From: Paracoccaceae bacterium
GTDB lineage: Bacteria > Pseudomonadota > Alphaproteobacteria > Rhodobacterales > Rhodobacteraceae
DNA length: 22,097 bases
Assembly: GCA_027080755.1 (NCBI GenBank)
Contig: JALWQC010000239.1
Coordinates: forward strand, 1 to 22,097
Direction: 5' to 3'
Shown here: piece by piece, positions 10,547 to 13,189 of the stretch
Layout of the letters: each line of letters starts with the position of its first letter
Numbering within the stretch: position 1 is the stretch's first letter
Notes under the pieces: generated by a model
Told to the model about the DNA's origin: nothing
Seen by the model: only the letters and a program-made list of their open reading frames with translations
The model's database searches: none
Position numbers and translations under genes: made by a program

Positions 10547-10574
10547 ATGTCTACTAACATATGTTAGTAGACAT
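10547..10574. promoter_or_regulatory. Perfect 28-bp palindromic operator A
   Basis: The left half-site ATGTCTACTAACAT (10547-10560) is followed directly by its exact reverse complement (10561-10574), without a spacer. It lies in the 175-bp gap between the methyltransferase stop and the start of the glutamate synthase-like gene, about 103 bp upstream of that ATG, so it probably controls the latter operon. Its half-site matches that of the palindrome at 12753-12780 in nine of fourteen positions, including TC-ACTAA, which points to one shared regulator. An intrinsic terminator is unlikely because there is no adjoining T-tract. Confidence 0.75.
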
Positions 10575-10618
10575 GCGGTGTTGTGCGTAACCCTTTGGGG
10601 TTGTTTGGGTTTTAGCGC

Positions 10619-11227
10619 CTAGCCGCGCCGGAAAACCGCGCCGTAGTGATAGGGGGGCAGCTCGGCCACCGTTTCCAGCGCAAACCCCGCCCGTTCCACC
10701 AGTTTGCTGGTTTCTACCGGCGTCATGCGCATCTCGCTGGCCGGACCGCGCGGCGTGCCCAGAACGGTGGTTTCCTCGCGCGGGTGGGCGTGCCAGTTGA
10801 TGATGGCCAGCAGCCCGCCGGGTTTCAGGATGGTCCGCAGATCGCGCAGCATATTTTCCTGCTCCGGGATGCCGTGGAAGGTATTGGCCAGAAACACCGC
10901 ATCCACCTTGTGATCCAGCAGCGCCGACAGATGGCGGGCGTCCGCTTGCAGCCAGTTACAAGCCGGTGCGCCGCTGCGGTTCAGATGCCGTTTGGCGCGG
11001 GTCAGCATAGCCGGATCGATATCGACCCCCGTCACCCGCCCGTCGAGCATTTTTGAAAGCGCCGCGGTAAACAAGCCGTCCCCGCAACAGAGGTCCACGA
11101 CCTCCATCCCCGGGCGGATGCAGACTTTGCGCAACACCTGCTCGGGGCGCGGCCAGAGGGTCCGCCACCACGCAGCATCGGGCATGGCAGTGGCGGGAAA
11201 CAGGGCGGCGGGGTCAAATTTCGACAT
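10619..11227 (-). CDS. Class I SAM-dependent methyltransferase coupled to the multicopper oxidase
   Basis: This 202-residue Rossmann-fold methyltransferase carries SAM-binding motif I VVDLCCGDGLF (43-53), the acidic motif II GVDIDPAML (67-75), QADARHL (94-100), and LKPGGLLAIINW (134-145). It has no cysteine pattern of arsenite methyltransferases and no DNA or RNA recognition domain, so its substrate is unknown. The frame is open to 11284, but the ATG at 11227 overlaps the oxidase stop in a TGATG arrangement, which indicates reinitiation and a two-gene operon. The context implies a role in the same metal or redox response as the oxidase. Nothing visible defines its acceptor. Confidence 0.88.
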   Translation of the reverse strand: MSKFDPAALFPATAMPDAAWWRTLWPRPEQVLRKVCIRPGMEVVDLCCGDGLFTAALSKMLDGRVTGVDIDPAMLTRAKRHLNRSGAPACNWLQADARHLSALLDHKVDAVFLANTFHGIPEQENMLRDLRTILKPGGLLAIINWHAHPREETTVLGTPRGPASEMRMTPVETSKLVERAGFALETVAELPPYHYGAVFRRG

Positions 11228-12666
11228 CAGACCACCACAAACTGGCCCATCATTCCGGCATCCTCGTGTTCCAGAATGTGGCAATGATACATGAAGGGGC
11301 TGTCTGGGTCGGCGTAATCCTCGAACCGCATGATCAGGCGCACCACCTCGCCGCCACGCAGGGTGACGGTGTCCTTGCGGGCCCGTTCATTGGCCGCCGG
11401 CGGCTTGCCGTTCCGGTTGAGGATCTGGAACTGCACGTCGTGCATATGCCAGACGTGGGGCATATTGGCGACATTGCGGATTTCCCATATCTCGGTCGTG
11501 TCGCGCTGGACGGTTTCGTCGATACGGTTGATATCCATCGACTTGCCGTTGATGGTGTGCATGCCGCCGCCGAACATCATGCCCGGCCCCATGCGGGTTT
11601 CCATGTCGAAACGGCGGGTTTTTACCGCGTCTTTCGGATCCAGCCACGCGATCTGCGCCAGTTTTTGCGGCACGGCAGGGCTGGCGGTCAATGTGTCGGC
11701 GGCGCGGATTTCCAGAAAGGCGAAGGGCTGGCCGTTGCTGAAATTGCGCAGGGTGATCTTTTGCCCCGCCTTCAGGTCCACAACGATTTCCCCGCGTTCG
11801 GCCGGCCCCAGCAACAGACGGTTCATTTCCACCGGCGTTTCCAGCAGGCCGCCATCGCTGGCGATCTGGAGGAAAGGCTGGTCGTTGTCGAACCCCAGAT
11901 AATAGAAACTGGCGTTGGAGGCATTGTGCAGCCGCAGCCGCAGCTTGTCCGTCGTGGCGTCGAAATAGGCGGCCAGTGTGCCATTGGTTAACGGGGTGTT
12001 GCCGAACAGCCCCATCATCATATCCCGACGGCCGGCCGTATAGGGCATATCGCCGCTGCGGGTGAAATTGCGATCCTGAAGCACCAGCGGAATATCGTCC
12101 ACGCCGTAGCTGCGGGGCAGGGCGAGGGCCTCGCTTTCCGCATCGTCGATCCAGACCTGACCGGCCAGCCCGTGCCAGACATGTTCCGCCGTTTTGCCCA
12201 TCAGATGCGCGTGATACCAGAGCGTCGCCGCCTTCTGCCGGACCCCGAATTCCGGCGACCAGGTTTCCCCGTCGCGGATAATCTGGTGCGGCCCGCCGTC
12301 CATCTTTGCCGGCAGGTGCATCCCGTGCCAATGCAGGGTCGAGGGCTCGCCAAGCGTGTTGGTAACGTTGATGCGCACCGGCTCGCCGTCCTTCATGCGC
12401 AGGGTCGGGCCCAGATAGCTGCCGTTCAGGCCGAAGGTGGGGGTCTGGTAGCCCTTGTAAAACTCGGTCGTGGATTTTTGCATGGTCAGGTCATAAACCC
12501 GCGTGCCGTTTTCCAGCCGCCCCGTGTCGAGGGCAGGGATTTTGAGCGCATTGACGGCCTGTTCCTGTGCCAGGCTCATCAGGGGGAAACCTCCGGCCAG
12601 CAGGGCCGTGGCCGCCGTGGTTTTCAGGAAATTGCGGCGGGTGGATAAAGGGGTTGGCAGGGTCAT
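11227..12666 (-). CDS. Tat-exported CueO-like multicopper oxidase
   Basis: The 479-residue protein begins with a twin-arginine signal (STRRNFLK at 8-15, then a hydrophobic stretch to about 33), so it should be folded and exported to the periplasm. All copper ligands are present: HWHG (His112, His114), YHAH (His152, His154), HVWHMH (His404, His407, His409) and HCHILEHEDAGM (His461, Cys462, His463, His467, Met472). Methionine as the axial type 1 ligand and the Met-rich stretch MGPGMMFGGGMH (359-370) resemble CueO, which oxidises Cu(I) in copper tolerance. The usual Pro of HPxHxH is Val here. The start follows GGAG. It is the first gene of an operon with the methyltransferase and is divergent from an arsR-like gene across a perfect palindrome. 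Confidence 0.93.
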   Translation of the reverse strand: MTLPTPLSTRRNFLKTTAATALLAGGFPLMSLAQEQAVNALKIPALDTGRLENGTRVYDLTMQKSTTEFYKGYQTPTFGLNGSYLGPTLRMKDGEPVRINVTNTLGEPSTLHWHGMHLPAKMDGGPHQIIRDGETWSPEFGVRQKAATLWYHAHLMGKTAEHVWHGLAGQVWIDDAESEALALPRSYGVDDIPLVLQDRNFTRSGDMPYTAGRRDMMMGLFGNTPLTNGTLAAYFDATTDKLRLRLHNASNASFYYLGFDNDQPFLQIASDGGLLETPVEMNRLLLGPAERGEIVVDLKAGQKITLRNFSNGQPFAFLEIRAADTLTASPAVPQKLAQIAWLDPKDAVKTRRFDMETRMGPGMMFGGGMHTINGKSMDINRIDETVQRDTTEIWEIRNVANMPHVWHMHDVQFQILNRNGKPPAANERARKDTVTLRGGEVVRLIMRFEDYADPDSPFMYHCHILEHEDAGMMGQFVVV

Positions 12667-12752
12667 TCAAAAGCTCCGGTTTGTGGGTCTGGGGGTAATA
12701 TGGGGGTTCCTGTTGCTGGAAGGTCAAGGGGGTGTGGCTGTGGCGGCCCGAC

Positions 12753-12780
12753 ATATCCACTAAACCGGTTTAGTGGATAT
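12753..12780. promoter_or_regulatory. Perfect 28-bp palindromic operator B
   Basis: The left half ATATCCACTAAACC (12753-12766) abuts its exact reverse complement (12767-12780). It sits in the 236-bp gap between the divergent multicopper oxidase (start 12666) and the arsR-like gene (start 12903), an ideal place for a repressor of both. The outer half-site agrees with palindrome A (10547-10574). Combined, they read ATRTCYACTAA as the half-site with a variable centre. Perfect dyads next to an ArsR-type gene are typical of autoregulated operators. That the adjacent protein binds here is inference. Confidence 0.78.
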
Positions 12781-12902
12781 AGTGCGAGCAACAAAATATA
12801 CATAACATCAACAGGTTACAGGATTTTTCACCGGTTGATATGCTATTAATCCGCCCCCCCGTAAAACCCGCAAAAGCGACAACAGAACAGGAGACCCCGA
12901 AA

Positions 12903-13189
12903 ATGAAACCACGCCCGAGCAAAAAGCCGCCGCCGCGTTTTTCAATGCGCTTGGCCATTCGCGGCGCATGATGTTGTGCAGGATTTTACCGGATCACCGG
13001 CCAAAGGGGCTGTCTTTTGGCGGGTTGATGGACAAAAGCGGGCTGAATGCCTCGACCCTGACCCATCATCTGGGGCTGATGGATCGGGGGCGGATTTTGC
13101 GGCGTCGCCAGAAGGGGCGCGAAACCTGGATCACGCTGGACACGGGGCGGCTGGCGCGGGTTGTGCGCAGCGTCGGGATTCCGGGTTAG
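12903..13189 (+). pseudogene. ArsR-family winged-helix regulator, frame broken by one missing base
   Basis: An ATG at 12903 follows a good AGGAGA site, but its frame closes after 22 codons. The other frame, with no ATG before 12968, encodes a textbook ArsR start: EQKAAAAFFNALGHSRRMML, then the recognition region LMDKSGLNASTLTHHLGLMDRG and wing RRRQKGRETWITL, ending at the TAG at 13187-13189. Adding one A in the AAA run just after the ATG would give a continuous 95-residue protein beginning MKTTPEQKAAAAFF. So this is either a sequencing error, a recent inactivation, or an unusual frameshift. Starting at the ATG of 12968 would lose helix 1. The ELCVC metal site of SmtB/ArsR proteins is absent, so the inducer is unclear. 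Its last 4 bp overlap the convergent transporter gene. Confidence 0.75.

Follow-up and report, generated by a model that had tools for sequence, protein, structure and literature searches.

The window, which is the whole 22,097-nucleotide stretch of contig JALWQC010000239.1 from a Paracoccaceae bacterium (assembly GCA_027080755.1), contains two 28-bp perfect palindromes (Table 1). Each is identical to its own reverse complement, as checked by script. They are the longest perfect palindromes in the window, the next longest being 14 bp. Base composition predicts 0.00019 palindromes of 28 bp per such window, and a chance origin is therefore rejected. The initial annotation had described both dyads, judged them very improbable by chance, and noted that their half-sites agree at nine of fourteen positions (consensus ATRTCYACTAA), all of which is correct. 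These spacer-less dyads were found by script and are missing from the repeat-finder listing.

The first palindrome (site 1) lies between the stop of a methyltransferase gene (10619) and the start of a glutamate-synthase-like gene (PF01645; start codon 10443, about 100 bp away). The second (site 2) lies between the start of a multicopper oxidase gene (12666) and an arsR-like frame, the two genes being divergent. SelO and two PMT_2 membrane proteins are also encoded nearby, and these gene surroundings are as first described. The arsR-like frame is broken near its start, where the ATG at 12903 is in a different frame, and represents either a decayed paralogue or a draft-assembly error. Its product is 58% identical to the paralogue P0001 and 55% identical to the paralogue L026.

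Table 1. Palindromes, putative integration host factor (IHF)-like elements and the ArsR-like gene of the window.
Feature	Position	Strand	Remark
28-bp perfect palindrome, CATATG-centre class (site 1)	10547..10574		ATGTCTACTAACATATGTTAGTAGACAT
28-bp perfect palindrome, ACCGGT-centre class, the common class (site 2)	12753..12780		ATATCCACTAAACCGGTTTAGTGGATAT
IHF-like CARNNNNTTR (CAAAGGGTTA)	10588..10597	-	in register, 37 bp from palindrome centre
IHF-like CARNNNNTTR (CAACAGGTTA)	12809..12818	+	in register, 42 bp from palindrome centre
Small ArsR-like winged-helix gene (mini-ArsR paralogue)	12905..13189	+	open frame to stop 13187-13189

A lineage-restricted family of dispersed palindromes

The palindrome family is real, maintained at orthologous loci and lineage-restricted, and the two window sites are members of a set of about 28 in their own genome (G000). 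The 28-bp consensus has three copies there, the third between convergent genes that read as a MATE transporter and an arsC-like/pyrD pair. The 28-mer of site 2 has an identical copy at G000:C317:1297-1324. A motif search in this and related genomes, as the initial annotation had proposed, yields tens of sites. With at most one mismatch, TCYACTAAN6TTAGTRGA occurs 26 times in the own genome, 13 times in G009, 29 times in G010 and 12 times in G015, and is absent from the remaining 57 of the 61 genomes scanned; a reversed control pattern gives 0 to 2 matches per genome.

Wider searches give the same picture. Among 40 genomes, the core AYTAAMCYRGKTTART is present in G000 (21), G004 (10), G009 (29), G010 (41), G015 (26) and G242 (19), to a lesser extent in G002 (4), G001 (1) and G008 (1), and in none of the remaining 31. 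Exact matches to CYAYTAANMNNKNTTARTRG occur in four of 394 genomes of the family, with 28 in G000, 24 in G015, 5 in G242 and one AT-rich match in G189. An exact scan of 84,980 species genomes for CACTAAACCGGTTTAGTG finds 48 stretches, 44 of them in six assemblies classified as Rhodobacteraceae (four), Marinosulfonomonas (one) and Alphaproteobacteria (one); the other four are single matches elsewhere. Related carrier genomes have 10-41 copies, and nearly all other searched Rhodobacteraceae lack the core. The exact 18-bp core is also seen on one viral contig, IMGVR_UViG_2600255093_000010 (L127:4834-4851). On the single-contig chromosome of G015, the distribution of 28 CCGG-centre sites resembles that of random points (circular p 0.53; 24% of random sets have an equal or lower gap coefficient of variation), and a site linked to the replication terminus or origin is rejected for this reason.

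The six central bases fall into few classes. When they are left free in the search and the outer core is fixed, the 83 sites found comprise 60 with ACCGGT, 13 with CATATG and 6 with ACTAGT, and all 13 CATATG sites belong to the own genome. Centre frequencies are taken from this set because some loci in the larger sets of 113 and 117 sites had been retrieved with the centre fixed as ACCGGT. The larger sets were de-duplicated by sequence and differ in the handling of sites near contig ends. Among the top matches listed, no open-licence paper describes these palindromes or a system of dispersed palindromes linked to ArsR, and the family is undescribed as far as these searches reach.

The small ArsR-like protein and its upstream dyads

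The mini-ArsR ('MKP') proteins are about 85-105 amino acids long, with one to four close paralogues per genome, and their genes lie downstream of palindromes in G000, G009, G010 and G015. Scores above 90 bits with profile A1 are found in six of the 40 genomes: G000 (3), G004 (1), G009 (1), G010 (2), G015 (1) and G242 (4). At least four cores are present in all six genomes with the protein versus one of the 34 without it (Fisher p 1.8e-6), and among the 394 genomes at least five cores are present in all three with the protein (G000, G015 and G242, which are shared with the set of 40) versus none of 391 without it (Fisher p 1e-7), both values being uncorrected for relatedness and genome choice.

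The mini-ArsR profile matches ArsR, YgaV, NolR and CzrA chains. An AlphaFold2 model of P0001, built from a 50-row alignment (mean predicted local distance difference test score 93, predicted template-modelling score 0.80), has four helices, a wing and a C-terminal helix in the ArsR order of elements, and its best Foldseek matches are ArsR, YgaV, SrnR, NolR and HlyU. The Pfam models HTH_20 and HTH_5 mostly score under cut-off, with L052 above it for HTH_20, and the NCBIfam metalloregulator model stays below its cut-off. By fold and sequence, mini-ArsR belongs to the ArsR/SmtB winged-helix family. A single cysteine is present in the second helix in six of seven alignment rows; the third-helix cysteine pair was not found, and the seven rows have neither of the metal-binding motifs sought (a3N cysteine pair or a5 site). 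Metal sensing looks unlikely because no cysteine pair is conserved. Membership in the fold family is unaffected, and ArsR members without metal binding exist.

Of the 12 close mini-ArsR genes, eight are preceded, within 200 bp, by a perfect palindrome that measures 16 to 34 bp. The A(C/T)TAAAC type accounts for seven, and the eighth (G242 C12) is TAGATACCTAGGTATCTA. The other four genes have imperfect dyads: 8 of 10 central pairs match at L039 of the own genome, 9 of 10 at G242 C49, and 8 of 10 at G242 C4 and C44. G004 has a pair of ATTAAACCGGTTTAAT dyads at a spacing of 102 bp. Three of 17 more distant ArsR genes, two in G063 (L134, L151) and one in G017 (L146), have AAACTAGTTT 20-32 bp upstream, which is also the centre of the ACTAGT-class dispersed palindromes. 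An inverted repeat near the regulator's own start, as in an operator, is a feature of the mini-ArsR genes. ArsR/SmtB operators include a TGAA-N6-TTCA type, with which the six bases between the present half-sites fit. An excerpt of PMC8790569 reports ArsR/SmtB proteins on 12-2-12 inverted repeats, and the HlyU footprint oligonucleotide given in part of PMC4330345 contains ACTAAATTAGT.

Sites and proteins appear in matching dialects. G242 has four close paralogues and its own CTACTATCCTAGGATAGTAG-type family, with 28 sites at up to three mismatches and none in six other genomes. The CATATG class is found in the own genome alone, as is, among the 40 genomes, the L039 paralogue, whose upstream site has the centre CATAGG/CCTATG (CCTATG on the gene's strand) and whose protein clusters with those of G242 (FastTree support 0.98). 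These few data points suggest that sites are specific to paralogues. The dyad of G242 C49, which is of the same clade as L039, has an ACTGGT centre and misfits a simple split by paralogue and site. The sister genome G007 lacks mini-ArsR and has another recurrent palindrome, ATTGCCACGTGGCAAT, at least five times in 400 kb (L182 near 14026, 15653 and 15739; L178 near 17905; L191 near 4794), which is possibly a further dispersed site family.

The initial annotation had assigned both dyads to one regulator, probably the adjacent ArsR protein. Co-occurrence and upstream dyads speak for a shared recognition system with a likely ArsR-type binder, and strongly suggest the small ArsR protein of the adjacent type as the best candidate.

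Placement between genes and a phased IHF-like element

Placement was determined for 91 sites at 60 loci. Of these, 80 could be placed, and 11 have a neighbour past the end of the contig or stretch. Genes were called with a home-made codon scorer that missed the small arsR genes, which were added by hand, and other small genes were therefore possibly missed too. None of the 80 sites lies inside a called gene. Site-bearing regions are co-directional (33), convergent (17) or divergent (9), and site-free regions of the same loci are co-directional (66), convergent (8) or divergent (34). Convergent regions are over-represented: they make up 17 of the 59 site-bearing regions, as compared to 8 of the 108 site-free ones (convergent versus all others, p 4e-4). 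Among co-directional sites, 29 of 47 are closer to the upstream stop, a bias to 3' over 5' gene ends. The adjoining genes share no common pathway, by reading of the sequences without a family search. Copies occur singly or in pairs. The 25 close pairs (<200 bp) comprise five at 77-78 bp, 11 at 96-102 bp and five at 158-160 bp, the others being scattered.

Twelve locus groups, picked for having sites in both species, were aligned between species. One to three copies of the palindrome persist amid diverged flanking DNA. The sites of the gcvT group fail column-by-column alignment, and at glcF a CATATG-class site of the own genome stands against two ACCGGT-centre sites in G010.

The two window loci behave differently. 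Orthologues of the glutamate-synthase-like gene and of the oxidase were each found in 11 of 15 genomes, the own genome included. Conservation of the palindrome upstream of orthologous genes had been named in the initial annotation as a check on its proposed regulon. Outside the own genome no such palindrome is present at these orthologues within the fetched stretches of up to 1.5 kb on each side, some of them shorter at contig ends, and this counts against the regulon. The palindrome-free orthologues include those of G009 and G010, which have 29 and 41 cores elsewhere. In G009 a single contig carries both genes, separated by about 0.75 kb that includes the end of the methyltransferase, and the palindrome is absent. 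In G004 and G008 a loose 10-base core pattern gives matches that lack the symmetry of the family, and a 20-bp palindrome in G006 is AT-rich.

About a third of the sites are accompanied by a second element. An unguided motif search of the flanks gave a T-rich/CA motif, which led to a test for IHF-like sites. The IHF consensus is WATCAANNNNTTR, with CARNNNNTTR as its conserved part (PMC10380432, excerpt). The window copies of CARNNNNTTR resemble this consensus and are putative IHF sites. Measured from the palindrome centre, CARNNNNTTR keeps to certain distances, in clusters at about 28, 38-40, 50 and 60-62 bp (bend centre set 2.5 bp before the element). It is in register at 37 of 117 sites. In 200 trials of random placement the number averaged 3.6 and never exceeded 12, a control that overstates significance because the pattern and registers were chosen after inspection of the data. 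The Fourier peak of the distances is at 11.5, slightly over the 10.5 of B-DNA.

Explanations for the dispersed sites

The explanation preferred here, at a probability of roughly 0.55, is a dispersed nucleoprotein element built on an ArsR-type operator and similar to the bacterial interspersed mosaic elements (BIME-1) or reiterative IHF BIMEs (RIB) of Escherichia coli. The window dyads would be two copies of a lineage-restricted operator-type palindrome, CYACTAA-N6-TTAGTRG and its dialects, bound by dimers of a small winged-helix ArsR protein that would also repress its own gene. About a third of the copies would have an IHF-like bend site at a helically phased distance. At tens of points along the chromosome, ArsR dimers and an IHF-type bender would then assemble into small nucleoprotein complexes that would have an architectural role or mark transcription boundaries, as BIME-1 and RIB are thought to do in enterobacteria.

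In BIME-1, paired repetitive extragenic palindromes (REPs) flank an IHF-binding stretch, and RIBs lie at the 3' ends of transcription units (PMC2817692, in part). The present palindromes are likewise scattered through intergenic DNA with a 3' bias and frequently occur in pairs, with an IHF-like site either adjacent or lying between the two members of a pair. They may work in the same manner without being REPs. Unlike in BIME-1, the palindrome is unrelated and symmetric, copy number is lower (10-41 cores), an ArsR protein is involved, and three carriers have no match to a REP-associated tyrosine transposase (RAYT). Compared to the ArsR/SmtB systems SmtB, CzrA, NolR and HlyU, they share the fold, the sequence family, the N6 dyad and its position upstream of the regulator's own gene. 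They differ in that near-identical sites number in the tens and often separate convergent genes, in that a metal-site cysteine pair is not conserved, and in that paralogues go with different palindrome dialects.

Several points weigh against this explanation. The IHF-like element is missing or out of register at 80 of the 117 sites, and part of the invariance seen in the outer core follows from the search itself, because the sites were found by pattern. The sites turn over, and the window positions lack the palindrome in relatives. The Fisher values overstate independence because the carriers are related and because the palindrome scan preceded part of the selection of the 40 genomes. Five of the seven genomes with at least four cores are of one genus. 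The protein was not found in G002 (four cores; 68% complete), G001 or G008 (one core each; 97% and 96% complete). Calls in the set of 394 depend on E values of 1e-20 or better and on the best 12 candidates scored per genome, and co-occurrence was tested for mini-ArsR and Y1_Tnp only. The C4 and C44 dyads are weak because 8/10 symmetry arises by chance at unrelated ArsR genes, and they were counted solely for their G242-dialect centre; one of the 17 distant ArsR genes, in G029, has an unrelated 16-bp palindrome upstream. Palindrome binding, a part for IHF and the chromosomal role are themselves inferred.

A selfish repeat of REP or miniature inverted-repeat transposable element type, spread by some transposase and merely present in ArsR promoters, is rather unlikely, although it ranks highest among the alternatives. 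REPs prefer convergent and co-directional spaces and have a GTAG or CGTC end tag (PMC3733652, in part). The present elements are also short palindromic intergenic repeats, mostly convergent and co-directional with few divergent sites, and their positions change between species. The own genome further has a repeat of up to about 0.55 kb in four copies (L027:2681-3233, L024:2753-3562, L022:2716-2926, L023:6380-6731), 90-94% identical over aligned 157-390 bp. It holds one palindrome of the CATATG class and one of the ACCGGT class at a spacing of 158-160 bp and accounts for four of the five pairs so spaced. A 0.57-kb stretch of it has no match on plasmids. However, the symmetric core has neither a one-sided tag nor an imperfect stem-loop, copies persist at orthologous loci, and the match between protein and site families is left unexplained. 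The RAYT domain Y1_Tnp (PF01797) is absent from G009, G010 and G015, with one marginal match in G000, two in G004 and three in G242. Membership in the GTAG and CGTC families of REP/RAYT is rejected on the missing tag and on this RAYT distribution.

An improbable reading makes the palindromes the target of another co-inherited DNA-binding protein or of a recombinase. Conserved arms with few alternative 6-bp centres (ACCGGT, CATATG, ACTAGT) would suit it, and the 11-6-11 layout resembles tyrosine-recombinase core sites. The centres are palindromic themselves, however, tens of recombination sites per chromosome would presumably be unstable, and it is mini-ArsR genes that adjoin the sites; neighbours were not systematically screened for recombinases.

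Slightly less probable still are transcribed hairpins with a role in termination or in mRNA 3'-end stability or processing. The outer arms pair at 4.1 of 8 positions versus 2.9 when shuffled, a value reached by none of 2000 shuffles (113 sites). The longest extension is a 54-bp perfect palindrome (L080:4523-4576), and symmetric extensions are locus-specific in sequence. The 3'-end bias agrees with hairpins, as do terminator-like hairpins: 18 of 91 sites have one directed at them at a distance of up to 60 bp, and 3 have one directed away within 110 bp. Arm symmetry could come from hairpin selection or from template-switch correction, which can make the arms of near-palindromes symmetric. A hairpin has no need of a centre limited to few sequences (ACCGGT in 60 of 83), and sites are also present upstream of arsR genes. 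The core is AT-rich, no T-run follows it, and terminators lie beside the sites, so that the palindromes are not intrinsic terminators. A known RNA family is rejected too, as eight scanned sources contain no Rfam family other than tRNAs at gathering threshold.

The least probable is the classical regulon of the initial annotation, in which the adjacent ArsR would control the oxidase, methyltransferase, [3Fe-4S]/FMN protein, SelO and glycosyltransferases from two promoters: site 2 between divergent oxidase and arsR genes and site 1 just before its gene are suitably placed, but about 28 sites by seemingly unrelated genes, many of them convergent, orthologous promoters without a dyad, and the broken ArsR frame lead to its rejection.

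A broader proposal can be made tentatively. Mini-ArsR families and matching palindrome dialects may co-evolve and spread, with a phased IHF-type bender, as a lineage-specific chromosome-organising system. This would be an ArsR-based analogue of BIMEs and REPs, independent of transposase-driven REPs and perhaps derived from an ordinary ArsR autoregulatory operator (AAACTAGTTT) that more distant ArsR genes retain. ArsR proteins are known chiefly as local metal or stress repressors. If true, a small ArsR family would represent a new route to REP- or BIME-like chromosome elements without a RAYT transposase. The contrast of 0 versus 41 cores in close relatives, together with the dialects of site and protein, would offer a natural experiment on the origin, spread and re-wiring of such a network, and the role of dispersed palindromes at 3' ends would become testable in a cultured marine bacterium.

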